DNA of 64,000 nucleotides from contig JAULBX010011100.1 in assembly GCA_032358255.1 (NCBI GenBank), positions 270,294-334,293 on the forward strand, read 5' to 3'. This DNA comes from Heterotrichella gracilis (taxonomy: Eukaryota; Sar; Xanthophyceae; Tribonematales; Xanthonemataceae). Both the position numbers and the translations under genes were made by a program. Below the pieces are notes generated by a model that ran no database searches, was not told the DNA's origin, and saw only the letters and a program-made list of their open reading frames with translations. Below are positions 7,909-54,481 of the stretch, piece by piece. Position 1 is the first letter of the stretch, and each line of letters begins with the position of its first letter.

Positions 7909-10900
7909 ATGAAGCGTGCCGGGGAGACCCGCGCTGTTCCATCCCACAAGCTACTGTTTGTGGATATCCTGCGCCTAGCCACCTTCAGTGCGGAGCATGG
8001 GGAGATAAACGAGGCAGCCTTGTATGTGGAGGGCAATGTCATCTCCTGGGTGGGGAAGACATCCGAGGTCCCGGAGGGTGAGGCCTGACTGCCTGCTTGA
8101 CACCCTGGCATGCCCTCCCATGCCACGCCCCCTGCTCTGCCCCCAGCCCTGGCTGCTATGCCCTAAAGCCTAGACCCTGCCACCTCGCGGGGTGTAGGTG
8201 CGGTACTCAGCTGCTTAGGCGGGTGCAGGGGCTACTCTTGCCTTGCCTTGTGGGCCACTCAGCCAACTCTAGACACAGCCAGCCCTAGTCACGGCCAAAG
8301 CTATTCATCACACGTGTGGCAAGCAACAGGTGTCATCGGGGTCCTTGATCAATGCCTTTCTTTAAACCCCCTAACTTCTGAAACCTGTCTCCTTGCTGCA
8401 GAGTACCGGGCGGCTGCAGACGAGGTGGTTTCCCTCAAGGGCAGGGTGGTGACGCCCGGGCTGGTCAACACGCACCACCACATGTTCCAGAGCCTCACCC
8501 GCTGCGTGGCACAGGTGACCCTCTCACAAGCATAACCTCCACAGTAATGCTGAAGCACCGTGTGTTGGTGTACATGACCAGTGTGTGCAAACCGTATGGA
8601 TTTGCTTGTTGCCGCGTCAGCATTTCGAGCACTTTCCTGCTTGACTTTGCATGACAAATTCAGATGGCGGCTGATGCTCGCTGCTGCCGCTGCAGGACTC
8701 GGAGCTGTTTGGATGGTTGACCACGCTTTACCCCGCGTGGGAGCAGTTGTCGGTGCGTGCTGAATGGCTCGACCCTACTGCTTGGATGTGACATGCAGAG
8801 GCATCACGATCTCCGCAGACAAAAGACAGCACGCTCATGCAGCAGGCCATTGGGGGATAATCATATGCCATCATGTGCCTTGTGCTGTTACCCCCCCACA
8901 ACGCCCCCACATGATTGCTCACTTGTTGCACCACCTTCTTTCGTCTAAAATTTCATTCATTATAAATTCCCGCACGCTCGCAGCGCAAAAAATCGTGTGG
9001 CGAGAGTAGAATGCATTGCTCGATTTTATGTAATTTTTTTCTAATTTATCACATCCATGCCAGGGCGAGGACGTGTATACTTCCTCCAAGCTGGCCATGG
9101 CTGAGCTCATCCTGTCGGGCTGCACATGCACCAGCGACCACCTGTACCTGTACCCAAACGACGTCACGCTGGACGACACGATACGCGCCGCACGCGACAT
9201 CGGCATGCGCTTCCACCCAACGCGCGGTGCGATGAGCCTGGGCCAGAGCAAAGGTGCGGGGCAGGAGCGGGGCACTGCTTAGGGTTTTTGGTTAAGGGTT
9301 CTGGGTTTAGGCTTCGGGGTTGAGCCTGGGCCAGAGCAACAGTGCGGGGCAGGGCACTGCTTAGGGTTTAGGTGCAAAGGTGCGGCGCGACCCCCACGTT
9401 GATGTAATGTTGATCACATGGAGGCTTTGATCATTTGCAATGGGGCAATCCTGTCGGCATTTAACGGGCTGATACATGCCGCAATCTCCAGGGGCACGTG
9501 AACATGAATATAATGTCACTGAGTGCCCCCCCTCCTGTCCAGAATTCAATTGCAAGTGCGTGCACAATCACGTGCAGCAAATGCCGCCATCTCTCCCCAC
9601 TTATTTCACTCACCTGCCGTCCCCCTCCATCAGGCGGCCTGCCCCCCAACAGCATCTGCAAGGACGAGCCCTCACCTTTGAACACCCCAAATCCCAAACC
9701 CTAAACCCTACATCATTTACAGGCGGCCTGCCCCCCAACAGCATCTGCGAGGAGGAGCCTCAACCCTAGAAAACCCTAACTCAAAACCCTGCACCTCAAA
9801 CCCTAAACCCTACTTCATTCCCATTGCAGGCGGCCTGCCCCCTGACAGCATCTGCGAGGAGGAGCCCGAGTGCCTGGAGGACATGCGCCGCTGCATCGAG
9901 GAGTTCCACGACCCCAAGCCCTTCTCGATGCTGCGCATGTCGCTGGCGCCCTGCGCGCCATTCTGCGTTACAGATGACCTCATGCGGGCCGCGGCCAAGC
10001 TGGCTCGCGAGTACCCCGGCGTGCGGCTGCACACGCACCTTGCTGAGAACCAAGAGGACATTGTGTATTCCAAGGAGTACTACGGCTGCCGGCCAGGGGA
10101 GTACATCAAGTGAGTGACATGGGGAGGGGGAGGGGTGTTGGGTTTCATGAAATAAGACGCGGGGGTTTGATATGTGTTTACCGGCATTGACACGTTGCCC
10201 TGGTGAGGATTGCGGGGATTGATGAAAAGGGGATGGGGGAGGAGGACCTTGAAAGATCCCACAACATGAGCTCAACAACAGGAATTGGGGGATGTCTGGA
10301 GGTTCTGGGGGGCGTGGTTGATACATTGGCAGGTTGAATTGGGTGGGGTTGGATATGGGTATCGCTGTGGGATACCGTTGGTAAGCACCGCGCTGGTGTG
10401 GTACATGCTGTTCTCCTGTTGCTTGTTGCTGATGAGAGCATGTGTTGTGCGCCAGGGGCGTGGGCTGGGACAAGGACGACTGCTGGTTTGCGCACTGCGT
10501 GATGCTGGACCACAAGGAGATGAAGGAGTTTGCAGCCAACGGCATCGGCATCGCGCACTGCCCCTCTTCCAACCTGCGGCTGGCGTCAGGTGCGCAGCAG
10601 CACAGATTCTTAATCCTAAAATCCTAGATGTGTACATGGCACCAGGTGTGCAGCCCAGACAGTGCTGTCACCCAGAATCATGTGCATGTTGCCTCCTGAC
10701 CCACGCTTTGCCCCTGTCCTGCCAGTCGAATGTGCATGCGCATTGCACCTGTTGCTGTGGCATCAAATCGCGTGTGCCCTACCGTGATCGGGCACTGCAA
10801 GGACGGTCAGCGTCCCCAAGTGACAAGCTAGTCATGACCTGCTAACATGCAACACTTGTGCTGATTGCCACCTGGCCCCGCAGGCATCTGCCCTGTGCGA

Positions 10901-11799
10901 AACATGCTTGACAACGGCATGAACGTGGGTCTGGGGGTGGATGGCAGCGCATCGTCGGACGCAGGCCACCTACTCATGGAGGCGCGCATGTCCATGCTGC
11001 TGCAGCGCGCGGCAGGTGAGCAAGGGAAAACCCTACACCCTGCATCCACAATCCCAAATCCTGCTTTCCTTTGTCCATGCTGCGGCAGCATGGGGCAGGT
11101 GGTAGGTAGGCGCCTGGCAACCGCATGTAGTTTGAATGCACTAGGCCTCATCACCAGCTATCTGGGCAAAGTACTGCCTCCCAGGTGCTGCTGCCTGTCA
11201 TGACCCGCGCTTTTTACTGCAGGAAACCCTAAGGGTTTGAGTGCCAGGGAGGCGCTGCGGATCGCCATCAAAGGGGGCGCCAAGAACCTGGGCCGCACCG
11301 ACATCGGCGAGATTGCGCCCGGCTTCGCCGCCGACTTTGTCGCGTGGCGCACCGACACCGTCAACTTTGCGGGTGGCCTGTACGACCCAGTGGCTGCGCT
11401 GGTACTGTGCACTGCGGGTGCTGACTCAGCAGACTGGGTGCTCATCAATGGCGATGTGGTGGTGAAGAATGGCAAGTTCACGACCATCGATGTGGAGGTA
11501 TGGCCAGCGCCTGGATGTGTTTTGGAGTGGTGTGTTGTTGGGCATTGGCTATTCTGGGGCATGGCGCTGTCGTAGGGTTCAGGGTTCTTCTGGACCGATG
11601 CATTGTTCAGGGTTATGGGGTCTCTGCACTGCCTGGTCTTGCTTATTTGCTAATGAAGATTGAAGTATTACCAAACAACCAAATTACTCGTATTTGCTCC
11701 TTGGTTGTGCAGGAGCTGGTGACTGAGCACAACAAGCGGTCTGCCCGCATCTGCTCATACATCCCAGACTACGTCATCCCAACCGATCAGTTGTCCTGA
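7909..11799 (+). CDS. 8-oxoguanine deaminase-family amidohydrolase
   Basis: Nine exons (7909-8077, 8402-8514, 8696-8752, 9064-9253, 9830-10109, 10456-10589, 10884-11015, 11223-11497, 11713-11799) join in phase to 478 aa, a normal length for the family. It belongs to the TRZ/ATZ amidohydrolases, TIM-barrel metal enzymes that hydrolytically deaminate ring heterocycles. Metal and catalytic residues are present: H81-x-H83 in NTHHHMFQ, H246 in [11 protein letters not shown]283 in WFAHCVMLD and D334 in [11 protein letters not shown]. The run [10 protein letters not shown], then [18 protein letters not shown], is typical of bacterial 8-oxoguanine deaminases; hydroxydechloroatrazine ethylaminohydrolase is the close alternative. 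Likely role: clearing oxidised guanine in the cytosol. Introns 4 and 7 carry telomere-like tracts, and intron 4 also holds copies of exon borders. The first Met fits the family N-terminus, but a 5' non-coding exon is possible. Confidence 0.85.
9233..9372 (+). repeat. duplicated exon-4/donor border with TTTAGGG-like tract
   Basis: The last coding bases of exon 4 plus the donor (9233-9288, from TGAGCCTGGGCCAGAGCAA) recur at 9321-9371, now with CAACAG in place of CAAAGG, which removes the donor. Between and after the copies lie degenerate TTTAGGG units. Confidence 0.8.
9631..9873 (+). repeat. triplicated exon-5/acceptor border with CCCTAAA tracts
   Basis: Three copies of a unit starting CAGGCGGCCTGCCCCC and running through AGCATCTGC-AGGA-GAGCC begin at about 9631, 9719 and 9828. 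Only the third continues into the open reading frame of exon 5. Runs of CCCTAAA-like repeats and a CCCTACWTCATT spacer separate the copies. The first two are decoy acceptors followed by out-of-context sequence. Confidence 0.85.
11224..11238 (+). repeat. telomere-like inverted unit inside coding exon
   Basis: AAACCC-TAA-GGGTTT at the very start of amidohydrolase exon 8 encodes part of GNPKGL, at a spot where related enzymes have a variable loop before the conserved REAL helix. It joins one CCCTAAA-type and one TTTAGGG-type half. Confidence 0.6.
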
Positions 11800-18652: not shown

Positions 18653-21600
18653 ATGATTATACAATCCCCTCGCTTGTTTGCTGCCTACCAAATGGGACAT
18701 GTTTTTGCTTGCCTAGGGCTACTGAGCGAGCGCCCACTGAAGCCAGTGCCCCAGCTCAAGATGGTCTTCTCCAGCGCCCCAGCAGCCCCTTTGGAGGCCC
18801 ACTCTGGCGCACCAGCAGCTCCCCAGAGGGCCTCCGCCTGCAGTTGTGCCAGCCAGAGCCCACCTCTCCACCACGTGCGCAGCGCTGTGATCATGGCCCC
18901 AACACCCTGCAGCTCTGGCAGCCCCAGCCTCGCCACCGACTGCCTGACCACCCTCCCACGGGCGAGATCCCAGCAGGCAGTCTCGGGCTTGAGCTTCAGC
19001 ACTGCAGCAGCTCCACACAGCCCCCGCTCCCCCGAAGCCTTCACAGCCATAGTCACCAAGGCCTCAAACAGGGCCACCCCAAGGGTACCAAGCGACTTTT
19101 CTCCCTACTTGAGCCCGCTTGTGAACATGCCGTTCCTGAACGAGGCCTCCCCGCGCATCACCAAGGCGATGGTGACTGACCATGGTCTGCCAGCCTGTGT
19201 GGTGGACCTTCCTGACGCGCAGGCAGCTGCCAAGCTCCTGGAGAACATCTGCCTTGACGTCACCAAGCCCGCGTTTGCTGACGAGGTAACTTGGATATAC
19301 AGCGACAACACTGGCCTTGGGCATGTGTGGCATCTTGCCTCCTTGGCAATGTTAACTGTGCACTGAAGTCATGTCTCACAGTGGCCCTATCATGCTTGTT
19401 TGATTAATATCAACCTTGAGCCTTATTGTAACCACCCACTCTGCGTGCAGCCCTTCATCTTCGATGAGAGCAAGTGGCACCATTATGGCGACATGGGCGG
19501 CCAAGGCCACCCCTATTCCCTCAGCCCCGTGCTGCCAATCCCCACCCTCAACATCGCCAACCAGCCCCAAGCCGCTCCCCAGAAACCCTTCACCAGCACC
19601 GGGTCCCAGAACAGCTGCATGAAAGAGGTCAGCGCCACAGGCGCAGGGTCCCAGTCCACCCCCGCAGCGTCTGAGCCCAGCCTCTACCTGCCCGCCACAC
19701 AGCGGAAGGGCACAGGCACCAAGCCAGGGAGGCACGCCAGGAGCTGCAGCGGGGATGAAATCAGCTCCGCCGTCACCGCCACCCACAGGCGCAGCGCCAT
19801 CACGTACACCCATCCCAGGGGCCGCAAGAGGAAGGCGACAGCCGCAACTCCAAGTGGTGCGCACCCTAAACCCTACACCATTGCCAACCCTAAACCCTAA
19901 CCCTCTCATAGCTGCAACTCTGCCACTGCGTGCTTTCTGTGCTCAATTGAGCCCCGTGTTTACCAACCTGTGCACGTTGTCAGCGCTTTCTTTATTAGGG
20001 AATTAGGGGTTAGGGTTTAGGGATTTCCACCCTCCATGCATATCTTGCTCCCACAGCCTGTAGATGCGCATCATCAGCAAGCTTCCATCCACGCCATCCC
20101 ACCCATTGTTATCTTCCCCAACCAACGGTTCCCGCACATTTGTGTGCAGGCAGCATCCCCAAGCGCCAGACGCGCGCCAAGCCCCGCGTCAAGTACCACG
20201 ATAGCGATTACGATGATGAGGACTACATGGAAGATGAAGAGGATGACTCGGACAGCAACGAGGACTGCGTGGCCAAGCATGTGGCTGACACCATCGCTCG
20301 GGAGTCGGTCAGGGATGAGCAGGAGGTGGACATGCGCTGCACGGTGACTGCTGTCCCGGGGCTTGGTGAGGGTGAGACGCACATCTCCTCCTACAGCAAG
20401 GTCATCAAGGGGGCAAGCACCATGAGCGCCAAGGTGGGGAGGGCATGTGGGCGGTAGGCGGTGTGCTGGGGTGCATGCAAAGCTGGCGGGTGGCTGCCTT
20501 TTGATTGGAGGCCTTGCACAATTCTTTCTTGGGTCCCCACATGCCAAACCTTAAACCCTACACCCTAACCCTCACTCCTGCTGTCCCAACTCCAAGATAT
20601 GCATGTCTCCCATCCACAACCCACAATAGTGGCCATGCAATAGACCAACCTTTCCCTCTTTGCTGCAGTCTTTGGCCATCTACGCTGCCAGCATCGGCGC
20701 CTCTGGTGTGCCATCGGATCTCGAGGAGGTGCTGACCATGCGCCTGGGCCAGGAGCCTGATGACATCATCGTGGAGGGTGACACCTGGCAGCCGGAGTCG
20801 CCAGACTCGCCCATGGCAATGTGCCTCCCGTGAGTGCCGCCCACCCATGTCCATGCGATCACATGGACCATGTGAATGATGATATGACATGACATGACCA
20901 TGCAAGTGTGATCATGCTATTCGTTTTCCAAGGGCCTTGAAAACTGCAAACGCGCCATTGCATGCACTAACTGCTCACCAGCCCCTGTGACAGTCCCCCC
21001 CAATGTGCCACTCAATCACCCCATCTTAATCCCCCTCTGCAGCTTGAAGGACGGAGCCCTCCACAAGGCCCTAGGCAGCCACGTCACCCCCACCAAGGGT
21101 GCGCAGCCCGGCAGTGCCCTGGGGCTGTCAGCCATTGGCCGCAACGGCTCAGCCGCAGACCTCGACCCCCGCAGCGTGACCCCCGGCAGTCGTGGGCGGC
21201 GCATGGTACGCCCCGCACATAGCAATTTGTTCACTGCTGGCGATGAGCTGAGCGAGGATGAGGACTTTGACGATCAGGATGACGAGGATGACGAAGGTAT
21301 GCTCCTAGTTCATCTGATAATGTCTATATACCATCAGATTATGTTTTTAACTGCCCACTGCCATGTCATGTGCGTTTCTCAGGTGGAGTGCATTCCTCAA
21401 TGGCCGCTTCTACCCAGTTTGCACCCCTGTACAGTTGTGAAGCGGTTGCCATGTTTTAGCTCTCCGTAAACCTGTTTACAATGCTGCGCCTGGCCATGCT
21501 CAGTAGCCGTGCATGTGGCTGTTGTACAACATAGCTGGCTTGGTACGCATGTGTAGTAATGTGGCGTGATTGGCGCGCTGGTGGTCAGACCATTCACCAT

Positions 21601-23076
21601 TAGTATTTCTTACCCAGGGCAGTGGGGTGTGGCATGTTCCAGCTTACACAATATGTGACATGGCGTCATGTGGGTGCACCCTAGATTCTAAACCCTGATT
21701 CTTACACCCTGTGACGTGGCACATGTGGGTGCAGATGATGACCGTGATGCAGGCGAGGGTGGTGAGGTGTGCAGCAACGGCGCCAGGGTCAAGCGCCGCA
21801 AGAACACCAAGCACATCACCCTGGCATTCCTGGAGGAAGGGGGGTACTTTGACCTGCCAATCCAGGTGAGCCAGCCGGTGAACCCTAAACCCTAAAACTG
21901 ACTAGTCCTGGTGTGTTGCGACATGTGGCTGACAGCACTTAGCAGTGGCAGTTGCAATTGTGCCTTTGCAGTAGCCGTGACCCAGGAGGATATATTTTCA
22001 ACCCTGTTTTCAATGCTGTCATCGTACCGATGCTATCATTGTGCAGCAATTGCCAACCATCCCTGCGCTGTGTCTCCAACGCACTGCATTGCCATTACAC
22101 ATCTCGGCAATCGATTAGCAAATGATGAAATGCTCCCTCCTGCAGGATGCCGCCATCCGCCTCTCGGTGGGTGTGACCACGTTAAAGAAGATCTGCAGGT
22201 CCCAGGGAGTTGGCCGCTGGCCCTTCAGGAAGCGCAACAGCTTGGACAAGCTGATTGAGAAGACCAAGCAGTTCATGCCCGGCACGGACACCTCCAACAC
22301 CGTGCACCGCGAGATGTGCCTGCAGACGCTGGAGCAGGAGAGGAACATCCTCAAGGTGAGGCCGCTGTCAAAGGGTTTAAGCGTTTAGGGTTTAAGGTTT
22401 GGATTGTGGCACTGTGCCTGCAGACGCTGGAGCAGGAGAGGAACATCCTCAAGGTGAAGCCACTGCCGGGGCTGGCTTGTGTTACCACCTGGTGTTACTG
22501 TGATGCCACCGCCAGCAATTTAGTATCAGTCATTTGAGGGGGACCAACGGTTGATGGTTCAATAAGAAGGAAATTGTGGGGGAAACCGCTTTTGTTGCCC
22601 AGTCTACAAAATCCAGTGAAAATGCGTTCCTAATGTCTCAATACTGCCTCTGTATGCTTGCATGCACAAGACCCACAGCACTACCCACCACCTACCACTC
22701 ATGATGCGCCCACCACTGGATACACAACATGATACATCACCAACCATTACCGTCACTTGGATGCATCACTTGCAAGTCCATGGACGCCGCACAGCAATCT
22801 ACTGCCTCTCAGGTGAGGAAGGACAAGGACATCGATCCCGACATAAAAAAGTACCGCCAGCTTGTGTTCAAGATGAACTACAAGATCAAAAAGGTGCCCA
22901 AGAGCAAGAGGCCCAGGATGGGCGAGAACATCTCCAAATTCTCCCCCACAGGCTCGCAAACAGGCGCCACCGTTGCGTCAGTGCCAAAGCTAGGCGGCCC
23001 CTACCCTCAGCTTGCAAGCGCCAGCAGGCCAATACCCACACGCGTATCTTCACGCCGCATCCATGCCAACGCGTAG
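18653..23076 (+). CDS. RWP-RK domain transcription factor
   Basis: Eight exons (18653-19285, 19451-19856, 20150-20433, 20669-20829, 21043-21296, 21735-21865, 22146-22355, 22813-23076) join in phase to 780 aa. The RWP-RK domain (about residues 605-660) starts HITLAFLEEGGYFDLPI. It continues with DAAIRLSVGVTTLKKICR and the signature GRWPFRKRNSLDKL, where F replaces the usual Y. RWP-RK proteins are DNA-binding regulators of nitrogen responses and sexual differentiation in green plants and algae. Upstream are low-complexity Ser/Ala/Pro regions, basic RGRKRKAT, an acidic Asp/Glu run (about 360-385) and DELSEDEDFDDQDDEDDE. After the domain comes a short coiled coil (TLEQERNILK) and a basic tail. 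No GAF or PB1 domain is seen, so it is closer to the RKD/MID-type than to full NIN-like proteins. Several introns hold telomere-like tracts. The start could be a later Met. Confidence 0.85.
19842..20025. repeat. telomere-like tracts of both orientations in RWP-RK intron 2
   Basis: CCCTAAA units begin directly after the donor (19861-19905), followed by a weak copy of the exon end (AGCTGCAACTC at about 19910 against AGCCGCAACTC at 19840). At 19998-20025 the same intron carries the opposite orientation (GGGGTTAGGGTTTAGGG). Confidence 0.65.
20548..20580 (+). repeat. CCCTAAA-like tract in RWP-RK intron 3
   Basis: Four degenerate units (CCTTAAACCCTACACCCTAACCCTC) lie about 90 bp before the acceptor at 20668. 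No border copy is evident. Confidence 0.6.
21655..21734 (+). repeat. duplicated acceptor border around CCCTAAA tract
   Basis: GTGACATGGCGTCATGTGGG and the following TGCA (21655-21678) recur as GTGACGTGGCACATGTGGG plus TGCAG at 21711-21734, where the second copy is the working acceptor of exon 6. Between them is a degenerate CCCTAAA tract (21676-21710). Confidence 0.75.
22312..22466 (+). repeat. duplicated exon-7/donor border with TTTAGGG tract; cryptic exon
   Basis: The last about 40 coding bases of exon 7 plus donor (22314-22366) are repeated nearly exactly at 22418-22468, separated by GGGTTTAAGCGTTTAGGG. The second copy has a usable CTGCAG acceptor and GTGAAG donor bracketing exactly 30 nt. 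It would add a second TLEQERNILK in frame if spliced in. Confidence 0.85.
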
Positions 23077-27539: not shown

Positions 27540-28330
<791 letters not shown>

Positions 28331-36403: not shown

Positions 36404-39400
36404 GGTTCTCGCTCCTCCTCCATCGACAGGGGGTTGTCTGTGCGTAGCTCTCACAGTGCTAGGTCAGGCTCCATACACGCTACCTTCTCACTACCTGCAT
36501 ACGGTTCCGGGAGTATTAGTGACTTCGACCATCCACAAGGGGCTTCAAGAGTCCTTTCGGATCAAGCTGTGCATACCACAATGGAGGACAACAACCAGAT
36601 TGACTCCCACCCCACCGACATCAGTCCAGGTCTGGCAAGGATTCTGGACTCCTGTTGAACAGGCTTGTGGGGCTGGACTAGGAGACTCTGTTATCGACAG
36701 GATCCACGTGTGCTGCATCCAACTAGCATTTGCTTGGCTCATTTCCTTGAGCAGTGCAGTCTGCATGATGCGCATGGCGCTGCAGTCTGCACAGCGCTTA
36801 GTACTGGCCATCAGGACTTGCGCCAACATGCAGTATGTTTTGTGCCCTCATTAGTGGCCAGCCCTTTATCCTCTACTGAGAGGGGTAAAAAGCAATGTGC
36901 TTGCAGAATGATATTTTGGGTGAAATCTTGCTAGTCCAATCGACTGCCTGGATCACATGATGTAATTTTGGGGGTTGCTTCAGTTTGTGACACGTAAAAC
37001 ATGCCTGCGAGCTACATGTAATTTCATGATCTGCTCCACAGGCTGTGCCATGATAGCACCCGCCGTTGCACTGCATGTGGGAAGCTGCTTTGCCATGACA
37101 TGACTGCGAGGCCCAGGGCCAGCATGTGCATCCGATGCCACATGCTGCCACAGCATGCGCATGCTATACTAAGTACTGGCGCCATTCAATTGTATAGTAA
37201 GCAGTCATGTGCTTTTTTCCAGGCGACTCCCTCCCAGTTGGCAACACGCCATTCAAGGGCTTTGACCCCACCATGGGGGGTGATGACAAGAAAGCAGGAG
37301 AGAGGATGGGAGACAGCGCATTCTCATCACCTTCCGTGCGCCGCTCAGGGAAGAGTGCCAACGGTCTTGCAAAGTGCGTGTTGAAATCGAGTGCACATGC
37401 CATGGCTTGGGTGAAGGATGCTTAGTGGGACGCCACGGGCTCATGATTGTATATATTTGGTGGTGGGGGTCACACTGAGAATTTAAGGAAACGGCTTGCC
37501 TTCGAAATTTCTTCTGCTTACTCTTAAGATTACTGACTTACCATTCAATGTCCGTGACAGTAATTCCTGTGCAGCCTGTCGTTGAGGCTTACTTGGTGAG
37601 CTATTCCTACAAGCTTTGAGGACCGGTCGTGCATTTTTTTCTTAGTTGCTAATATGTTTTAAACAGTTGTAACAGTGAAATTTGCTCTTGACGTGAAAAT
37701 GCTCCTGGCCCTGTTCACGCTTAGTTATCTCGAACCAACTGACATGTATCGCATCAATCATTGCAGGGGACCGGCTATTGGAAGCATCACAGAGAACCCA
37801 CCTAGCGCCGTGCCAACCTCCCCAGTGACTATCGTGCTGCAGCAGCAGCCAGCAGCTCCCGCCCCTGCCCCCGCCCCCGCCCCCGCCCCGGCACCGGCAC
37901 CGGCTCCCGTGGCTCAGCCCCAGCAGGTGGCGCTCCCCCAGATGATGCCGCAGCAGATGGTGTATGTGAGCAGCCCTCCCCAGGCCTCCCAGCAGCAGCC
38001 AGGTAGCTAGATAGATTAGCTTCGCTGGTCTTGCATGGCCTTGCGGTATTGCGCATGTGTGCTACTCTTGCTACTCAGCAATTACATATCAGTTGTTAAT
38101 GTCCCTGGCTTAATGTTTTGAGAAGGTTGAAACATGTGTGTTTCATACATCTTCTTACAAGATATTCACTGCTCCACAGCTGTGACGGTGGACCTCCAGC
38201 CCGCAGCAGCTGCTGTTGGGTCAGCCGGAGCCCCCATCGACCAGTCATACCCTCTGCCGACCGCATCCCCTGCGCCAATGCAAGCCCCTCAGCAGGCAGC
38301 CCCTGTCATGATGGCCCCCCAGCAGGCACCGATGGTGTCCATGCAGCAGATGGCGCCACAGTCGTACGCCGCTCCCACAGTCATGATGGCGCCACAGCAG
38401 CCATCGCCAGTGGTCTCCATGCAGCCCGTGGCGCCAGTCATGCTTGCCCCTCAGCCCCTCCAGGCCACGCCAGTGATGTCCCCGCAGCCAATGGCGCAGC
38501 AGTACTACACCTCCCCTGCGCACGCTGCGGGCGGAGAGTATGGGCGGGACATCCTGTCTGCATTTGCTGGGGTGCCTCACGTGAAGCCCCAGTGGGCCAA
38601 CAGGTAAGCCTGCCAGTGATCAGGTGCAGGGTTGTAACTGAGGCCAGGATACCTGGATGTACATTTTTAAGTTACTTGCGTAGTTTTACAGAGGGCTATA
38701 TCAATATATGTCTATTAATAGCACAGCGTGTGATGATATAGCTGCTAATCTGTAGTGCAACTTAACCACCGCTGGGCGTTTATGTGGGTAGACCATACGA
38801 TTAAATAGAAAGGTATTTCCAACCGTATTGGCTTAGTATAAGAACTGACAAGAGTCAAACGCCCTTTTAACTTTAGCACTCCACGGTATAGGAGTCTCTC
38901 GTGCGACTGCGGCACGTGCTTGTTGCAATATATGCATTATTATATACAGGCTAAAACTTTTGGCCCTTTTAACACTTAGCAGGTGTTAACCTGTCAGTTG
39001 AGGCACACATTGTTGCGGCGCGCTGGCTGTCAGAGGTTGAGCATTTTATAAGATGGATGGTATAAGTGGAACACTACCAACCTCCTTGTTGATCAGTGAT
39101 AAGTGGCAGTACTAAACTGTTTGTATCAATTCGCCAAGCTTGACTGTGACACCATAGATCATTAATGGCAAATAACATTTTTTGTGTATGTCCAGGTGGA
39201 TGAAGATCATGGTGGTTGGGGAGTCAGGCCTGGGCAAGACAACATTCATCAAGAACCTATTTGCCTCCTACACCAATGATTCGAACATGTCGGTCAACGA
39301 TGCCTCAGGTGAGGCACAGGATGGGGGCGGGGGAGGTGCATTGCAATGACACATTGCAATAGTGAGTTGTGAAACACTTGTGCGCAGTCATCGTGAACAC

Positions 39401-42400
39401 TCTACGAGCTGCGTGCAAAATTTGGTGAGGAGCAGTGCGAAGCGAGTCACTCACTGTGATTGAACATTGTAATTATTGACGCTGGTGATTTCAGTCACTC
39501 ACTTTGCCGTGCTGCTTAGGAAAACCTGAAAAGCTGCAGGTAGAACACAACTACTGAACGCACCTCTGTCAGCAGTTGTTCTGTGCGTCTGGCTATTTAT
39601 AACGTGCATATTCTTGCCTCGTACTTAGAACGAAAGCACATGAAACTGACTATATGCTAGGTGACTTGAATTTGCTCATTAGTTGCATCCTGCCCTCTTA
39701 AACCCTCCTTTATGCCTTGGCCCTGCAGAACCCATCAGCTGCAATATGAATGCGCCAGGCCCTGTCTCATAAGCGCCTGGGCATCAAATTTTAATGATTG
39801 CACTTCCTCTACCTGACTCACCCCTTGCACTTGGCCTCTTCCTTTATCTTCTTAATTCAGCATGCCTGTTAAAGTTCAAGGACAGGCAGTGTAGCATCTT
39901 CCAAATTGGCCCCCTCTCACATTTGTCCCCCTGCCCACCTTGCAGGCCCCACCAGCCGCGAAGTGTTTGCACGCTCCCCCGAGCGCCTGTGCACCCAGAT
40001 CAGCGTGGCCAACCAGGACCAGTGCGTGCAGTTCCACTACCTGGTGCAAGACACACCCGGTCACGGGGACAAGGGCAGGCTGGAGGACCACATGGATGCA
40101 GTGCTGGGATACGTCCACACCTGCAGCAGGTGACGCAGATGACTGTGGCGCACCTTCTTGTTTTGAACCATCAGTTCGTGCTCTGTAGGCATGCTATAGG
40201 AGATGTGCACTGGTTTGTGTACAAGATTGAGTGTCCTGGCACATGATAGGCCTGGCATATAGCTGCTGCACTGGACTCAGTTCTATGCCAGGCCTATCAT
40301 GCGCCAAGACCAGTGGTCGCCAGCAATGAAAGCAATCATTCCTACATGATAGGGAGGTGCCTACGCAGTGGTTGCTTGCTCCATCCCACATTCAAGTTGT
40401 CTTGTTAATGTGGGTGTGCTATTGTTCCTGCAAGATGTGGCAGTTGGCTGACAAATTCCTGTCTGGGTATGCAGGAAGTACATGGAGCTTGAGCAGGGTC
40501 ACGACCGCAGCATCCCCATGTCCAAGATCCCCGATCCCCGCGTGGACGTTGTCCTCTTCTTCCTGCCCCCGCATCGCCTCAAGGACTCTGACGTGGCCTA
40601 CATGCGCCAGCTGGCGGAGCTTGTGCCTGTGGTGCCTGTGCTGTCCAAGGCTGACAGCATGACAAGTGCTGAGCTGGAGGCGTTCAGGGTGAAAGTGAGG
40701 GAGGCGCTCAAGGGGACAGGTGAGGATGTACTGCCTGTATGCTGCCCTGCTTGCCACTGTAATGGTCAATGTCATGCCCCATTATGACCATTTGGGACCC
40801 AGTATTCATACATAATATCTGACTGGGCACTCCCGTGTGTGGAAATATCTGAAGTACATGGCACACTCACAAAATTTCTTATTGTGAAGGAACAGTGTGC
40901 AATCAATTACTCATTATTACGCTGCACAACATGAATCACTTACAGCACAAATTCCTCACGCACTGAATGAGTCAGCTTCACTTTGTGCAGAGAAGCGCGT
41001 GATGCACGAGTTCAGCCAGGAGGGCATGCGCGAGGCCGGCGCCAAGCACGACCCCCCCTTTGCAATCATCTGCTCAACCATCATGGACCTCAACGTGGGC
41101 AGGTGAGTGTGATGCCATGATGTACAGAAACACACTCCTTTCTCTGAGTAATGTTGCTGGAATCATATTGAGACATTATGGGATGTTTTGCACAAGGTTT
41201 TGAGGTGTGGGATATATCCCTTTCTTACCCACCCCACACCCCAGGTTGAACGCCATGTGTATGTATGTTATTGGTGTTTATTTATTCCATCTTACATGTC
41301 CAGGTTCTGGCCGGTGCGCACCTACCCCTGGGGCACCTGCCAGGCGCTGCTGTCTGGACACTCTGACCTGGCCGCGCTGCGCCGCCTGCTGTTCGAGTTT
41401 GGTTATGAGGAGCTGAAGTCAGGGACAGAGGAGAGGTACTACGAGTACCGCAGGTGAGGGGTACAGGGGGTGATGATCCCCAGGGATCTGGGTGGATGCT
41501 GGCGTGGGGCAGCAGGTATTGCGTGGCTGGAAGAGTTTTGTGTTGAACATTGTAAGTGCTGTGGGGGCCAGGTGTGGTTGTATGTGACATGAGTGCATGT
41601 GGTTGGGGTAGTCTCATTAAAGGTGGGCCGGACCCCTGAGGGGTTGAAAATGCACTGCCTGGTGGGAGGAGGTGGTTGTGTGACAGCATTTGATGTGGAA
41701 ATTAATTACATACCTATCGTATCCTGCCTGTTATTTAGCACGTCGACTCTTTGCCTGCTATTGGTTATAGCAAATATGCGCCATTCTCATAATAAACCCT
41801 CCACTGACATATGTGTTGTGTTGCTCCCCTCAGGACACACGGCCAGTCGGCTGCAGCGCGCAAAGAGAACCGCCATGGCCTGATTCACAACAGCCTGACT
41901 GGTCTGGGTGGTGCCGCCATGAGGGTGGTCAAGACTGTTGCAGTGGCGGGGCTGGTGGTGGGTGCGTCGGCACTGGCGCTCAATGCAATGCCCTCAGTAA
42001 AGGTAAGGGTTTAGGGTGTAGAGGGTTTAGGGTTTACGCCTGGTGGTGGGCGCGTAGGCACTGGCGCTCAATGCTATACCGCAGTGAAGAAGGGGGGTGG
42101 TCTCTGAGGTTGGAGGAAATTGCAGAAGATTTAGATGATGTCAGAAATTACGCGGTTGAGCTGGCATGGCAAGCCTTTTGGACAGTTTGCACTGTGTGTG
42201 TAAGAGTTAGCAGGCTATGTGTCCAAGGAATGTATTGTTTGGGTGTTATGCCGGTTGGCATATAGGTGGGATGTTCCGTTATGTTGGCGTGTAATGCATG
42301 TACAGGTGGGTGCTACAATCAAATATCTAGCATTGCCTTCGCTCAATCTGTTCATAGAGTGTGGCAAGCTTGCCTGCAGCGCGCTGTCAACATTGCCAGT

Positions 42401-42757
42401 CCTGGTCAAGAGACGCTCAACCAGAGTATTCAATAGAAATTTGTTTTTATTTCATGAGGCATGGTCCATTGTTTCTTACTTTTCTAGCGTGACAGTTATC
42501 TGAAAAGAACGTCGCTTCTGTTTGCGCAGGCCGAGGTGCGCAAGCACGTGATTGTGAGCAAGGTTGTGGGCCATATCGACGAGGCTGTCAGCAACACCAG
42601 GAATGGCATCGAGGAGGCCACAGAGAGCGTCAAGAACACCGTCAGCAACATGACCAGGGGGGCGCAGGACAATGTGGAGGAGGTTATTGAGCCTGTGGTG
42701 GATCAGAAGGCTCGCAAGCGCCGCCAGTGGTACCAGATTTTCAATGCCCAGGAGTAA
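36404..42757 (+). CDS. septin GTPase with Pro/Gln/Met-rich N-terminus and C-terminal hydrophobic segment
   Basis: Eleven exons (36404-36629, 37223-37373, 37767-38002, 38180-38603, 39196-39308, 39946-40129, 40475-40719, 40991-41102, 41304-41453, 41834-42002, 42530-42757) join in phase. From the in-frame ATG at 36581 the product is 686 aa; the first exon stays open upstream, so it may be longer. Septins are filament-forming GTPases at membranes and division sites. The G domain has the P-loop GESGLGKTT, DTPG (switch II) and SKAD (G4), then FWPVRTYPWG in the position of the septin unique element. Before it lie about 230 low-complexity residues with an (AP)n run and many Q/M/P. After it a hydrophobic stretch (VAVAGLVVGASALALNAM) looks membrane-inserting, followed by a charged amphipathic helix (NGIEEATESVKNTVSNMT). 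Land plants lack septins; chlorophytes have them. Confidence 0.88.
37851..37912 (+). repeat. CCCCCG-type microsatellite coding (Ala-Pro)n
   Basis: CCCGCC/CCGGCA hexamer-like units encode about nine Ala-Pro pairs in the septin N-terminal extension. Likely length-variable between strains (inference). Confidence 0.75.
40233..40310. repeat. 78-nt foldback hairpin in septin intron
   Basis: Two 27-nt arms (40233-40259 and 40284-40310) are reverse complements except at two positions, with a 24-nt loop. Both exceptions are A-C on the plus strand and therefore G-U on a minus-strand RNA, which would form an unbroken 27-bp duplex. A short outer pairing (CACTGGT near 40209 with ACCAGTG at 40309) extends it. 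Confidence 0.8.
41952..42090 (+). repeat. duplicated septin exon-10 border with TTTAGGG tract
   Basis: The exon end from CTGGTGGTGGGTGCGTCGGC (41952-42002) is copied at 42039-42090 with substitutions. GGGTTTAGGGTGTAGAGGG and GTTTAGGGTTT (42006-42036) lie between, right after the donor GTAAGG. Confidence 0.82.
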
Positions 42758-44588: not shown

Positions 44589-44669
44589 GCAAATTTGGCG
44601 GAGTGGTTAACGCGGTGCCCTGCTAAGGCATTTCCTTCGGGAGCGCAGGTTCGAATCCTGCAGTTTGCG
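44589..44669 (+). tRNA. tRNA-Ser(GCU)
   Basis: The acceptor stem GCAAATT pairs with AGTTTGC (one G-T), followed by discriminator G44669, typical of Ser tRNAs. The D-arm contains TGGCGGAGTGGTTAACGC. The anticodon stem GTGCC/GGCAT closes loop CTGCTAA, anticodon GCT. A long variable arm (TTTCCTTCGGGAG, type II) and T-arm GCAGG-TTCGAAT-CCTGC follow. There is no intron. CCA is not encoded, as expected for a nuclear gene. A TTTTG-TTTT run just downstream would end Pol III transcription. Confidence 0.96.
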
Positions 44670-46816: not shown

Positions 46817-47412
46817 TACAATATTGCGCTACAACTGACGCACAATCATTAAGCCACAAGCATTTTTTGGTTTTTGTGATTGTCGCAGAACTCAAATTGC
46901 AAATTGGCTGCGCACAGGAAGAATATATTCTTGAATGTGCAAAAAGTAACTTATTTTTGCCACCTTCTAACGGTGTTGCACACGTGCTGATGGTGATGTT
47001 CCGCGGTTAACCCTTTCGCTACGAAGATGCAGATCTGCACGCACTCGTGGAAACACAGTATAATAAACACCCTAAGGGCCTTGTAAGCAGCCACAGTGCC
47101 TGGCGACGGCGGTTAGGGTATATGTCAGCGTTTGGGACCATCGGGCTCCAATTACATCGCCGATCGCAGCGGTTTTGGTGTTGTGCAGTGCAGAGAATCT
47201 ATCAGCCTAATCAGATCCATTTGCATATGGGCAAGAAATACACATAATGCAGCTACGTACGGTGTACAACAGTCTTGGGGATGGTTGTAGGTCACAAATC
47301 ATTAGCAGCGTTGAACTATTAACACTGCACATACGCTCTGTAATTTGGAATGATACACCGTCTCGTGCAATTTACCCAGCCTAGTCAGATCAGGTTGTCT
47401 TATGGAGCGGTA
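46817..47412. other. intergenic stretch, no supported gene
   Basis: AT-richer sequence upstream of the retroelement fragment and 3' of the F-box gene. Nothing recognised. Confidence 0.5.
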
Positions 47413-48741: not shown

Positions 48742-50759
48742 TGTCACAGTGGCGTTGAGGTATGACACCTGTGGCCATGGAAAACAGCCGTCAAACGCAA
48801 CCTTCATAGCCAAACCACCAGCACTGTGCAGTATGGTGCAGAGGCGGTGGGCAGTGCGTGAGAGTGCGCTAGCGTGCCTCTGAGGCAATCAATGCGAGAT
48901 ACAAGCACGCTGCTGATGGGTGAAAGTCGGCGAATGTATCAAAAGTGAATGCTTTGCGGAGGGTTTGCAGGAAATACGTGGGAGCCCCCTGCAACCCGGG
49001 GTGCTCCATGGCATCTTGAAATATTCTTTCAAGTTTTATAGATAAACAACCATGGTACAAGGCCTTGGTGGATCTGGGTGGCATAAAGCGGTAAATCGGA
49101 ATTGCCTAAAAGTGTTTAGTGCTCATCCGTCGCCAATCTGCAAATGTTTGATGCAACTTTGGATGCACATGCATGCATATGGAACCCATCTAGTTCCGAC
49201 CCGTGGGTCGGTACTTCTACCGCGGAAAAAGGAAGTTGGATAGTGAGACGGCCAATACGAAACGCAGCATACCCACCTCCTACAGTGGTGAATGGTTTGT
49301 GAAAGGGGTGCTGCGGGGACAGGGCGAGATGTAATGGATAGGGTGCAGCTGCATGCAAGAGAAGGAGCGCAAGGACACACGGCAGGCATGCTGGATACAA
49401 TTTACGCAATGGGTATTTCATACCAAGGAGAGCTGCTGTGTATTATGCAATATGGGTCACCAATTGGTTGGAACGTGCTGCATGCATGCATGTGAGGAGG
49501 ACTGAACCCCGGCTTCGTCAAGCGCGCCGTGAAGCACGACTCCATTCTAGAAAGAATTGGCAAGCAAAATTGGCAAGCATCGAACCAGCATCAATACTAC
49601 TCACTTCCGCCTACTATGCCTACCTGGTATGAAACCAACCCACACCTCGTCGGGTGAGCAGCCACGACCACAGTGTCACACCCAGCAGATCTGGAGTGAG
49701 GACCGGTGCTGAAGAGCTACAAGACCTTGGCGGATGCTGGTCGAGAGAAGACGTGCACTGGTAGCCAATGCAACATGACCAATGGATGCAACGACAGGAG
49801 TTCCAATTCACAGCACTGGCAATGTTTGCGAGGGATATAAAGCACCAGTACTGGACTACCGTATGTACCTCCCCCCAAACGTAGAGGCAAAGCCCAGTTG
49901 CAGCACAGTGCTGCAGCTCTGCGAGTTACAGTTGGACTTCTTGTAAACTGGTGCCTGGTTGGTGCCTGACCAGTCTGTACTGCAGTTGGGTTAGCTAAAC
50001 CCTAGGGTTCTGTGATATTAAAAAAAAAGTGAAAGCCTGAGGCGAGACGCGTAGTTTTGGAGACTCTCATGATCACCTGATATCCCGAGGAGGCATCAGC
50101 TAGGGTTCTGTTCCAAAAATCAGAAAGAAATGGCAACCTAAGTCTTGGTATAGAATTGGTCTAGAAACCAGAGTTTCAATCTGTGGCAACCCTACCAGCC
50201 TCAAAAGTCAGTGCTGGCTCAAGACTTGTTGTTACAGGTTGCATGGCACCCACTGCAAGTGACAACAGTTGAGTTACTCGGGGGCGGGACCCAAGCTTGC
50301 CTGCCACACTGCTGGACCAGGTGACCCTTACTTGCAAAGGCGCAGGTCACCAAAGGCCTCCATTTCTTCAAAAAAAAATTATGCAAACTTTCCCTGGTCC
50401 AAGGTCCACCGTGGTCCCAGAGCAGCTGAACAATAATCAAGTCACTCAATGCGCAGGATTATCCCAAATGTGAGGCACGTTCACAGCTGTGCAGCAAAAA
50501 AACACAAAGTGGCAAAACAGCGGGGGGAATTGGGCTGAGCACACAATTGTGCAGTGCTGGTGGCTGGCAACAGATGGAAAAAACGTAGATCTCGACCAAG
50601 GAGAAAGGTTTAGCGTGCGTCAGGAGCCAATGAAAAACCTAACGAGAGCAGCAAAGCCTTCCGGGAGTGTTCAGTGCGTTCATTGTTTCATTCAAGTGTT
50701 CAAGGAGCGGGGGAAGCGAGCGCAGCAGATGAAAATGCCTGCGTTGGTTCATTTTGCAA
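48742..50759. other. intergenic stretch, no firmly supported gene
   Basis: About 2 kb between two minus-strand genes. The right end of the F-box transcript may extend to about 49090. Beyond that only short, unlikely frames are seen. A CCCTAGGGTT unit occurs near 50000. Confidence 0.4.
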
Positions 50760-53700
50760 TCAAGCGGTGCCAGTCGGGTTGACAATCGCAATGGTGCTAG
50801 TAGGGTTCCCTGGATTGTCCGTCTTATTTTGGCTTATGACAGGAGCGGATCCAACCCCGTCCTGGATCACTGCTGCGAGTTTTTTGAAGGCATCTGAGAG
50901 CGCCTTGACAGTGCCGCTGCCTGGCTGCCCCGCCAAAGTGGTGGTTTTCTGGGGAGCAGGGCTGCCTTTGGAATTCACAGTGATCGTTGGCGTCAGACCG
51001 TTCACCTGCAGCGGGACATGCAAGAGGTAATTGGGCGCCTGTTCTTGCCACACAGAAATGGCTGCTGCTTTACTGCACGTTTCCCCCTATGATCCACATT
51101 CAATGTATGGATTACATGGTTACTTGGTCGCATTATATCATGTAATTATTTGCGATTTACATGTTGATAATATATCATTATGCGCGGCATTCTGAGCCTC
51201 ATTGAATCACGCCAGAGTGGCAGCACCACCTGCCTGGACTGGCCTTGCATGCATTTCGAGCTGTGCTATGCACCAATGGATCCCAAAGTGCGATGCAGGG
51301 CAACATGTGAAGAGTACAGCCATGTTGGAACCGCCAATGCCAGCTCTTCAAATCTGGGTCAAGTAGGTTGCACCTCACCTTTGCAAGTGTTTGGTTGAAG
51401 AACGAGTACTGGTTCACGACCCCGTTGCTGGACATGGATGACGCGTAAAAGGTGGCAGCAACCTGGTTGTTGAAGGACAGCGAGTTGCTGGAGTTTTGCG
51501 TGGTGAAAAATGACGTCTGCTGGTTGATCTTTACGAAATCCGCTGTCTTGACGTTCTTGGGGATTTTGATTGTGAACATGTTGATGATTGTGAACACGTT
51601 GGTGCTGCTCTGTGTCAGCCCAACTGTAGAAGAAGCGTTGTCTGCACAGTACACAGGTCCCTGGTTCATTGCGCAACCCCGCGGACGTAAAATGGGTGCT
51701 CTGGGCCATGCAGAAATATGGATATCACTGCTATCATGCTGAACAATAGTTTGCAGTATGCCAACAAGTAGGCCTGATAGCAGCGGCCAATCAAGGTGTC
51801 ATTGCATCATCAAGCATGTGCATAACTCACCATATTTCTTGTTGACTGGTGTCGCCTGCTGCAGCGACATGACATACAATGCCCTGTCCGTCTCCAAGCC
51901 CTCAGGCACAGCCTCCAGTCCCAGCCCATACTTGATGGCGCTGATGGACTCCTGGATCTGCTGTGAAGCTGTGGACGAATCGGTGCTGCTGGTGACCCCA
52001 TCAGCAAACACGTTCACCACACCCGCCTTGCCCCCCACTGGGATGGATTGCGTGGATTTTGTGGCTGGGTTGGTGACCTTAGTTTGGCTGAGCACAGCTG
52101 TGTAGTCGCTGGCGTTGAGCACTTGCACGCCCACCACAAAGTTCTTCTGCGTGATGACAGTGGGGAGCCTCTGGGTGAAGGTCACTGCCGCGTTGGCGTT
52201 GATGGTCAGGGCGTTGATGATGTGCTGGGCGTTGTTGTTGCGCTGGTGCACGTTGGCAATGTCCACCACCACCGAATTGGGGCACGCTGCATCCACAGAA
52301 AGTCACTCAGTCAGCTCCAGGCTCCAAGCATCGATGAAAAAGGATATTAAATAGAAAATGCAATATATTGTTTATATTCCTGGAGAAAGTATTGACTGTG
52401 TTGTTTATTTTTTGTTTCTTACATATACCAAATATTGTCAGGACATTCCATTGCACATCCATATATTATTCGGCAATCTATAAATCCAATGGACCAGCCT
52501 GCTGGTGTATTAAGGTGGTATAGATCCGCACGCGGTTTGAATGGTCCTTACCTAGAGCTGACAGCCTTCTTCCATATCGGTTGTACAACAATGGAGTCTT
52601 GTATGAGGCAGTCATTTCCATACTAGCTGTCACAGGCTTATCTGGTGTTGACTGCTGACCATGGAGGGGCGTGAACTCCTTCATTGAGCCCAGATCATCA
52701 GCTATGCTTTGCAGCAGCCTGCGACGTGATAGCGGTATACACTTAGCCACGGACAGGTGTTTTAGTGAGAGTGCTGCAAATCCTCGCTGCAAAACACATC
52801 ACTGTGTAGAAATCTGGTTGCTTGCAAAGATGGCTATCAACTGTGTGTCACACTAACTGATAATGCACGTACTTGTAATCCAAGCTTCCAGCTCTGCTGT
52901 CAATGTTTGAGTAAACCTGTGAATTAGTCCCAGAAATGCTCATGGTCTTCAACCGGGAGGGCTTTGCAATCTGATTGGCGTTTATCTCATTCCCCTGGCT
53001 GACCACCACTCCAAAAGTCTGGGATATTTTGATTGGCTTTGTGGCGGTGAGTGTGAGTTGGTTGATCACATCCTGGGTGTTGGTGTCCGACTGGAAAACA
53101 TTGCCAATGTTGGTTGAATCACCTGCAGGAAGGTACAGGGACCACTGTAGGCATAGGACATAACAAGGGCAGCCCTGGATGGCTGCCTGGTAAAACAGGC
53201 GCATGATGCGGAGTGGATAGCGTACAAGGCGGTGGTGCCAAGCAGCATCTGCTGCAGAAACGGCACCGTCACAATGTCGACATTAGGATTGAAAGGCATA
53301 CACTGCCCCGTGCTTTGTGACAGCAGCTTACCCTTTGCTGGTGGTGGAGGGGAGGAACTCTTGGCTTTTGCAGCTGTAGTCCACAGAAATGGATATCAGG
53401 CCATCAGCCAGCATACATGCATTCTCAAAACCATTCAACACACAACCAAACGCATGACTCATGCACCATGATGCTGTATAGCACGAATCATACTGTCCAT
53501 CGACAATGCGGTGCTGCATGATCAGTGGTGAGCCTGCACAACCTGCTGGACGACCAGTGTGCATTTCCTGTCCCTCCCTAAGGCTAATGCATGCTGCGCG
53601 CATGTGCACACCTGAGAGGAGGATGTTTTGCTCCACGCCCTCTGGACCAGCCTGGCTGTCACCCAGCGACTGCGTGGATTTCTGCTGCTGGTTGCCCTTC

Positions 53701-54481
53701 AGCTTGGCAGCAACGTTATCCAGGGCCTTGGAGAGCGCGGCCAGTGTCTTTTTACTGGTCACTGTGTTGGCCACAACCGTCATAGGCTGGCTCCCATCCC
53801 ATGACCTGATATTTATCTTCTGCCCGTTGAGGGTTATGCTGACCTTGGAGTTGCCCTTTGACCCCACGTTGGCGGAGCCTTGGGTGACGGCCACTGCGGG
53901 TTTGCTGGGGGGGGTCTGCGAGCTGGATGACATGACAGCCACAAAGCTGAGCGCCCCATTCAGCTTGACATGGTACTGGTTAGTGGTCACCTGGTTGGTC
54001 TGAGTGATGTATGTTTGAATGATCTGGTCTAGGTTCACGGGCGCGTTGGCGTTGATGGTGACTGAGTTGACGTAGGTCACGCTGTTTTTGGACAGCTGGT
54101 TGACGTTCAGGGCGTTGATGTTGCCGGGGCAGGGGGCGGGGGGTGGCGGAGCTTTCTTGCTTGCTCCTGCAGCATGGGAATTTGGGGTTTAGGGTTTGGG
54201 GAAGGGTTTAGGGTTTAGGGTTGGGGTACAGGGTTGCTCCTGCAGCATTGGAATTGTCTGTTACCAGTCCTACAGCCAGCCCCACTAGTGAGGAACAGCA
54301 GTACAACCTACCATGCATGTGTACGTATTGATGACACCAGACAAGGACATAAATGCTCACCTGCTGAAACAACACTGCAACCCGCTGCTACCAAGAGAAT
54401 GCATAGGGCGTGCTTTGCTGCGCTGTTGCGGTGCCGCAGGTATCTGTTGCCATTTTGCCGAGGTATCCCGTGCCACGCCAT
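50760..54481 (-). CDS. secreted protein with four two-part repeats, unknown family
   Basis: Eight exons (54481-54361, 54166-53612, 53373-53332, 53122-52873, 52718-52552, 52286-51831, 51641-51379, 51005-50760) join in phase to 699 aa. Residues 1-41 form a signal peptide (ALCILLVAAGCSVVSA after a basic start). Then comes a Pro-rich stretch KKAPPPPAPCPGN; another, KSSSPPPPAKG, precedes repeat 2. Four diverged modules follow. Each has a beta-type motif, roughly N-x-Q-x-V-I-N-x-L-T-I-x-A-x3-V, and then an amphipathic helix. Motifs: VTYVNSVTINANAPV, QDVINQLTLTATKPI, QHIINALTINANAAV, FTIINMFTIKIPKNV. Helices: TLAALSKALDNVAAKL, LLQSIADDLGSM, ASQQIQESISAIKYGL, TVKALSDAFKKLAAVI. Few cysteines and no further membrane span. 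Secretion and the Pro linkers suggest a cell-wall or matrix protein (inference). I know no family with this pattern; it is not pherophorin-like. Confidence 0.68.
54161..54255. repeat. duplicated acceptor border around telomere-like tract, secreted-protein intron 1
   Basis: TTGCTCCTGCAGCATGGGAA (54161-54180) recurs as TTGCTCCTGCAGCATTGGAA at 54234-54253, with about five TTTAGGG-like units (54181-54233) between. On the transcribed minus strand this is a CCCTAAA tract between two CTGCAG-GAGCAA acceptors. The one at 54167 gives the correct phase; the copy at 54240 is a second candidate. Confidence 0.82.

Follow-up and report, generated by a model that had tools for sequence, protein, structure and literature searches.

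Introner elements of algae and other protists are sequence families that bring their own splice sites and thereby give rise to new introns, and in plants, paired-nick or patch-mediated break repair generates tandem duplications, tens of bp long, that enclose filler DNA and to our knowledge are neither telomeric nor tied to splice sites. In mammals, the parts of the literature drawn on here describe short interstitial telomeric sequences (short-ITSs) whose insertion is attributed to the repair of double-strand breaks, possibly by telomerase, with direct target duplication among the outcomes; direct duplication alone was seen at 3 of 66 horse ITS loci, and the 31% of human ITSs that are intronic fits random placement (PMC7215372). 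The neointrons of Daphnia pulex, as covered in the sections cited, carry direct repeats attributed to staggered breaks, those shared with the exon end being 4–12 bp long, and repeated events have been proposed to lengthen introns (PMC4202315). Likewise, the cited portion of Rogers and Bendich (2025) proposes break repair as the source of repeats of 4–30 bp (mean 11.4), which lie at the two opposite ends in 213 introns of various types (PMC11782384). Here, we describe a 64-kb stretch of the genome of Heterotrichella gracilis (hereafter the window; positions 270294–334293 of a contig that we call C112), in which short, degenerate TTTAGGG/CCCTAAA tracts lie almost only in introns, often between long, imperfect copies of the adjacent exon end and splice site.

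This pattern is real and non-random, and it extends past the window. As in the mammalian short-ITSs, short telomeric-like repeats occur at internal sites with direct target duplication, a modification typical of break repair; unlike in the horse and human loci, as far as these are covered in the parts of PMC7215372 cited, strong copies flank 39 of 93 tracts, the copies are centred on exon borders, and 84 of the 93 tracts are intronic and 4 intergenic, so that the random placement reported for human ITSs does not hold here. Direct repeats shared with the adjacent exon end are present here as in the D. pulex neointrons, and some may likewise be footprints of staggered breaks, though tandem duplication accounts for part of those seen here; in contrast to the Daphnia cases, as given in the cited sections, the copies are mostly 30–85 bp, the spacer is often telomeric, and the one intron checked probably pre-existed (PMC4202315, whose text has no word beginning with "telomer"). 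Direct repeats near intron ends are shared with the introns of Rogers and Bendich as the cited portion describes them, but here the long copies lie at the same intron end, with the tract between them (PMC11782384). Telomeric tracts between long exon-border copies are not described in the cited portions of PMC7215372, PMC4202315, and PMC11782384, and searches of open-access PMC papers brought up no title on telomeric introns, which is weak evidence of absence.

Telomere-like tracts and their flanking copies

We take TTTAGGG to be the telomeric repeat of this species because eight-unit arrays stand at contig starts: perfect (TTTAGGG)8 matches occur on 11 contigs, at most 7 bases from the contig start on five of them (C70, C140, C609, C717, and C770). 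Two matches to the TERT RNA-binding domain were found, on contig C626. Across the 68.5-Mb assembly (903 contigs), the exact 14-mer TTTAGGGTTTAGGG has 5629 matches (2845 + 2784, overlaps counted), versus 5 (2 + 3) for its reversed control. Together with the contig-start arrays, these counts characterize the tracts as short, non-terminal runs of the organism's own telomeric repeat, as short-ITSs are defined.

The sequence analysed comprised the window and 200 kb more of C112 (264 kb in total, to which the results below refer unless C2 is named), as well as 30 loci of 3014 bp each on a second contig, C2, taken from the first listed matches of the exact 14-mer; 20 of these loci were kept after removal of those less than 400 bp from another. 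Tracts were found by cyclic local alignment to TTTAGGG with a score of at least 14, yielding 95 tracts, or 93 once neighbours were merged. At this threshold, four control heptamers gave 0–1 tracts per sequence versus 6–42 for TTTAGGG, and these controls, with those on the flanks given below, led us to reject chance as the source of the pattern. The earlier note had placed the pattern at six or more sites in four genes of the window; most of these sites are borne out, but the scope was too narrow, as the 14-mer counts and the C2 loci indicate a genome-wide pattern.

To score flanking copies, 200 bp on either side of each tract was aligned with telomeric bases masked, and a score of at least 20 was called strong. 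The strong copies were 32–84 bp in length, and 54 of the 93 tracts lacked one. The same score was reached at 1.8% of random positions (n = 3612), in 0.6% of swapped flanks (n = 1831), and in none of 93 inverted comparisons, so the copy-tract-copy structure, as had been proposed from the sequence alone, goes well beyond chance. That such copies might be a property of every intronic position was likewise rejected, since only 4.0% of 3000 draws from tract-free introns reached a strong score. On C2, copies were strong at 17 of the 43 scored tracts, weak at 11, and absent at 15.

Genes were predicted with a small hidden Markov model trained on the contig itself, with telomeric bases treated as neutral (51 genes, 376 introns). 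Five tracts fall in predicted exons, at least two of which (25620 and 87719) look like false mini-exons within arrays. Intergenic DNA makes up 33% of the 264 kb yet holds only the 4 tracts mentioned above (p = 2e-11), and on C2, all 43 scored tracts are intronic. A predicted exon border lies inside a copy in 33 of the 39 strong cases versus 25% of shifted placements anywhere and 36% of those within genes, a figure that is not fully independent because borders were predicted partly from the copies. With this proviso, the proposed tie to exon borders is borne out. Two protein alignments touch on the same point. In an isoamylase model, the predicted repeat (query residues 260–289) lies between aligned blocks that are five residues apart in the homologue; as the homologue has no repeat, the second copy lies outside the conserved protein and was wrongly included by the model. 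In an NADH dehydrogenase model, the homology alignment ends at the predicted repeat, which is no more than suggestive. Tract-bearing introns cluster in 25 of the 51 genes, and none of 2000 permutations was equally clustered. Within genes, tract introns showed no 5'-3' trend in position (p = 0.28), and the gene-level difference in GC content at third codon positions (0.776 versus 0.746, p = 0.037) is too weak to read as expression.

Sites in the window

Twelve tracts in the window exceed the threshold: five with strong copies, one with copies scoring 15.5, and six without. Gene borders in the window come from the ab initio model, except for a deaminase junction backed by homology. In window coordinates, the features are as follows:

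9234–9265, plus strand: functional copy, exon end and donor (exon 9064–9253, donor 9254), 8-oxoguanine-deaminase-like gene
9279–9321, plus strand: telomere-like tract, TTTAGGG in gene sense, deaminase-like gene
9322–9353, plus strand: intronic pseudo-copy of the donor border, with a short tract (9361–9372) after it
9631–9670, plus strand: intronic pseudo-copy 1 of the acceptor border (CAG and exon start), deaminase-like gene
9684–9710, minus strand: telomere-like tract, CCCTAAA in gene sense, deaminase-like gene
9717–9759, plus strand: intronic pseudo-copy 2 of the acceptor border, deaminase-like gene
9771–9812, minus strand: telomere-like tract, CCCTAAA in gene sense, ending 17 nt upstream of the functional exon start
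9824–9866, plus strand: functional copy, acceptor and exon start (exon 9830–10109), deaminase-like gene
19863–19904, minus strand: telomere-like tract without a supported flanking copy, 6 nt past a predicted exon end
21657–21733, plus strand: weak site, two ~22-bp intron-end copies (21657–21678 and 21713–21733); predicted exon starts at 21735
22315–22367, plus strand: functional copy, exon end and donor (predicted exon 22146–22355), RWP-RK gene
22372–22400, plus strand: telomere-like tract, TTTAGGG in gene sense, RWP-RK gene
22413–22465, plus strand: second copy of the donor border, 30 nt of it called an in-frame mini-exon by the gene finder
41952–42002, plus strand: functional copy, exon end (predicted exon 41834–42002), septin gene
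42006–42036, plus strand: telomere-like tract, TTTAGGG in gene sense, beginning 3 nt past the predicted exon end
42040–42089, plus strand: intronic pseudo-copy of the exon end, septin gene
54163–54180, minus strand: functional 18-bp copy with predicted acceptor (exon 53612–54166), ab initio gene
54181–54235, plus strand: telomere-like tract, CCCTAAA in the sense of the minus-strand gene
54236–54253, minus strand: intronic pseudo-copy, moderate support, same minus-strand gene

The seven places concerned had been read in the earlier note as copies around a tract, with 19842 as a weak case, and this is clear at 9233, 9631, 22312, and 41952, moderately supported at 54161, and weak at 21655, whereas at 19842 it is not supported. 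In the deaminase-like gene, the copies at 9234–9265 and 9322–9353 are 94% identical, those at 9631–9670 and 9720–9759 95%, and those at 9717–9759 and 9824–9866 93%; identity is 96% between 22315–22367 and 22413–22465 and 86% between 41952–42002 and 42040–42089, and every one of these pairs is strong. Judging from the gene model, the copy at 22413–22465 may be intronic or may be retained as an exon. The pair at 54163–54180 and 54236–54253 is 94% identical over 18 bp, with both copies abutting the tract and a score of 15.5; random positions score at least 14 in 4.6% and at least 16 in 3.6% of cases, and swapped flanks in 1.1% and 0.7%. At 21657–21733, the copies enclose a degenerate stretch in CCCTAAA sense, a tract under the threshold, and the copy score (13 for 21655–21734) compares with 11 and 20 for the 95th and 99th percentiles of the window null. 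The tract within 19842–19935 is itself real, but its flanks match with a score of only 8.5 versus a null median of 8.

Across the junction 9253/9830, the alignment to the deaminase of PDB 7ww2 is ungapped; therefore, the copies and tracts in between are intronic. Because each end of intron 9254–9829 has separate events, the intron is probably older than its insertions, and the idea that such duplications are a route to new introns finds no support at this site.

Other recognised genes in the window encode a septin, an RWP-RK protein, a ring-hydroxylating enzyme, and an EF-hand protein, which we take to resemble centrin. Considered with the TTTAGGG telomere, such a gene content would point to a green alga, although H. 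gracilis belongs to the Xanthophyceae. The predicted minus-strand protein of 50481–54318 (548 aa) appears by eye to be rich in Asn, Thr, and Ser and had no Pfam match at E 0.001. Two septin-like genes, at window 36581–42757 and C112 151078–155433 (the latter named by alignment to the former), each carry a telomere-bearing border duplication. Only 2 of the 10 intron positions of the window gene match one of the other gene, and the duplication-bearing intron could not clearly be matched between the two, so the paralogue did not provide an empty site.

Border duplications, decay of the copies, and orientation

A search of the 264 kb that started from local direct duplications rather than from tracts (score of at least 22, spacing up to 350 bp) found 63 sites, 47 of which have an exon border in a copy. 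A tract lies between the copies at 20 of these border sites and nearby at 1, whereas 26 are tract-less, a group that includes six mainly exonic sites and some repetitive ones. The spacers of the tract-less sites are apparently unrelated unique sequence or, in a few instances, repeat the outer flank. Exon-edge duplication into introns is, then, a general feature here, with the telomeric tract as one kind of spacer. Two such duplications without a telomeric spacer (window 56090–56385 and 56941–57127) lie in a predicted minus-strand gene. A minisatellite with a unit of ~103 bp was also seen, in intergenic DNA at C112 79877–80136. The site at 41952 is absent from the border sites used in the codon-position, spacer-age, and per-gene tests, probably because its predicted border coincides with the margin of the aligned copy; 54163 falls under the score.

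Among the 44 of 47 border sites with an identifiable functional copy, spacers are telomeric at 12 of 13 with at least 93% identity (control units, 2 of 13), at 3 of 10 with 87–93% (control, 1), and at 4 of 21 with less (control, 1), the youngest and oldest classes differing with a Fisher p of 5e-5. The earlier note described a tract between the copies throughout, which suits nearly all of the youngest sites but not the 26 without one. Old tracts may have been eroded beyond recognition, or telomeric spacers may mark a recent phase; judged by eye, spacers at old sites show no faint telomeric character, scoring no higher for telomeric units than for control units. Pairs with at least 97% identity comprise 5 border, 3 intronic, 1 intergenic, and 1 mixed case, and those with 93–97% comprise 15 border, 4 intronic, 1 intergenic, 2 exonic, and 5 mixed cases, so that border duplications (20 of 37) are the largest class at or above 93%. 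Numbers in the older classes are inflated, since decay is slower in a functional copy than in a pair of intronic copies.

The copies at border sites differ by 0–28%, and the differences are unevenly spread over codon positions. With 6 of the 47 sites left out as ambiguous, they number 15/214, 9/215, and 23/218 at first, second, and third positions of the tract sites (third, 23 of 47) and 31/361, 26/360, and 71/359 at the tract-less sites (third, 71 of 128). Indels are mostly confined to the tract-less sites, which have 22 of a single base; the tract sites have one in all, of 2 bases. The third-position bias fits synonymous drift of the functional copy together with neutral decay of the other, and with the single-base indels of the tract-less sites it disfavours the copies being kept as alternative exons.

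Tract orientation depends on the nearer splice site. The 84 intronic tracts comprise 39 with CCCTAAA in sense (C-sense) near an acceptor and 19 near a donor, and 23 with TTTAGGG in sense (G-sense) near a donor and only 3 near an acceptor (Fisher p = 3e-6, with array members not independent). Counted per site, telomeric spacers are C-sense at 8 acceptors and G-sense at 0, and G-sense at 8 donors and C-sense at 3 (Fisher p = 0.003); with weaker copies included and arrays unmerged, the figures are 14 C-sense and 1 G-sense at acceptors and 16 G-sense and 8 C-sense at donors. The pattern is weaker on C2 (C-sense acceptor, 15; G-sense donor, 11; C-sense donor, 10; G-sense acceptor, 7). Genome-wide motif counts, which concern putative splice sites, agree: AGGTGAG is followed within 30 nt by the repeat in G-sense 154 times and in C-sense 92 times, and TTGCAGG is preceded by it in C-sense 82 times and in G-sense 38 times (p ~1e-4 for each). 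In 267 tract-free introns, C runs (CCCCC, 5.5-fold), CTGAC (3.6-fold), and CTAAC (2.7-fold) are enriched in the region 50–10 nt upstream of the acceptor. Of 16 predicted introns that measure at least 120 bp and have a tract no more than 30 nt from the acceptor, 15 hold the C-sense repeat in this region. The simplest reading is that the acceptor tolerates CCCTAAA for its likeness to a branch point and pyrimidine region, as it would give a C-rich, CTAA-containing stretch before the AG, whereas TTTAGGG would offer early AGs.

Origin and meaning of the pattern

The explanation we favour, though tentatively and with slightly less than even confidence, is interstitial telomeric insertion with target-site duplication by staggered-break (or paired-nick) repair at exon-intron borders, filtered by splicing and followed by local tandem amplification. 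A staggered break or paired nicks would leave two ends straddling the border, fill-in of the overhangs would duplicate the exon edge with its splice site over ~18–85 bp, and between the copies telomeric DNA would be added or captured, each event adding one copy and one tract to the intron. The copy joined to the exon would remain functional, while the other would become intronic and decay, as the codon positions of the differences and the indels support. Splicing selection would retain acceptor-side insertions mostly where CCCTAAA is in sense, with both senses surviving on the donor side, and later amplification of copy and tract would produce the arrays. For the preference for borders, the repeated events in certain genes, and the rarity of intergenic tracts, transcription-linked breakage or a link to co-transcriptional splicing is no more than a guess. 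Six of the 19 telomeric-spacer sites (window 22315; C112 27341, 27746, 61786, 83562, which is borderline, and 154781, a three-copy array) have no tract outside the copies, and on reading the sequence, nothing telomeric lies outside those at 41952 and 54163 either; such sites fit fill-in and are hard to obtain from tandem duplication alone. The repair mechanism is thus plausible, as the earlier note suggested, although the 13 other sites and the arrays show that tandem duplication has to be granted a part.

Several results weigh against this explanation. The gene models are mostly ab initio, and the prediction of borders in copies is partly self-fulfilling. Tract-bearing introns have a median length of 355 bp versus 261 bp, which is not clean evidence of lengthening because long introns are likelier to hold a tract; this size bias can explain the contrast, and the mean intron lengths of genes with and without border duplications (284 versus 299 bp) do not back it. 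Stepwise accretion at the border is not borne out by the order of units in arrays (22 pairs agree with it and 17 do not). Intronic and intergenic duplications make up 9 of the 37 pairs with at least 93% identity, a smaller share than expected from random breakage. Orientation is not uniform either: the acceptor site at C112 13722 has a G-sense tract, and on C2 the acceptor-side tracts are G-sense in 7 of 22 cases. Finally, 26 of 47 border sites lack a telomeric tract, telomeric sequence also lies outside the pseudo-copy at 13 of the 19 telomeric-spacer sites, and 7 of the 13 youngest sites show spacer-to-outer-flank similarity, as in plain tandem duplication; these last points bear on two alternatives.

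It is quite possible, if on balance doubtful, that an unknown border-linked process duplicates exon edges around any spacer, with the telomeric repeat as just one of the fillers, or as that of a recent burst, which would be compatible with the repair explanation. The 26 tract-less sites (versus 20 with a tract between the copies) and their unrelated, unique spacers point in this direction, as does the correlation between per-gene rates of tract and tract-less border duplications (44 genes, rho = 0.38, p = 0.011). The prevalence of telomeric spacers at the youngest sites and their scarcity at the oldest argue the other way, as old spacers may then be eroded tracts, and the mainly exonic and repetitive cases diminish the tract-less class.

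A second alternative, which we regard as rather unlikely, is that the tracts came first, gathering near intron borders as a tolerated or useful splice signal and then provoking tandem duplication of border and tract through replication slippage, fork stalling on the G-rich strand, or unequal exchange. Three arrays (C112 93300–93538, 138507–138931, and 174935–175253) repeat copy and tract as a unit and so need tandem amplification, and the outer telomeric sequence, the spacer-to-flank similarity, and the 54 tracts without strong copies would all follow readily. However, tandem duplication of border plus tract should give a tract on both sides, which the six sites named above, together with 41952 and 54163, do not show, and the source of thousands of telomeric tracts would be left unaccounted for.

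A mobile element or introner-like family with telomeric ends that makes target-site duplications is very improbable. Like introners, our sites involve intron-restricted insertions with what resemble target duplications in unicellular eukaryotes; in apparent contrast to introners, the inserts examined, compared by eye and not in an all-against-all search, showed no common sequence beyond the telomeric heptamer, and target-site duplications are usually shorter than the longest copies here (up to 85 bp). One small dispersed repeat, present in two inverted copies that contain TTTAGGG-like units and have the same 15-bp end sequence (C112 2240–2395 and 107558–107713), speaks for such an element, and its appearance is that of a repeat family and not of a border duplication. 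An assembly or sequencing artefact is scarcely credible: tandem structures are prone to misassembly, but the divergence of the copies, its third-position bias, the many single-base indels in tract-less sites, and the recurrence across genes and on two contigs all speak against it.

Taken with the preferred repair explanation, the pattern is a variant of interstitial telomeric insertion, and the orientation bias and tract-less border copies extend what was originally noticed. We also consider a stronger claim, conceivable but improbable at present: telomerase or telomeric-DNA capture may act in this lineage as a genome-wide mutator of gene structure, inserting the repeat again and again at the exon edges of some genes, where its CCCTAAA strand would serve as branch point and pyrimidine region and would spread as splicing-compatible intron filler without a mobile element. 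The origin of intron sequence and of filler DNA is an old question for which few footprints are young enough to read. This genome seemingly holds thousands of intronic telomeric tracts, in which the paired exon-edge copies provide an internal clock, the filler is recognisable, and the filter is apparently splicing. If the filler is made by telomerase, this would mean a large-scale mutagenic role of telomerase inside genes.

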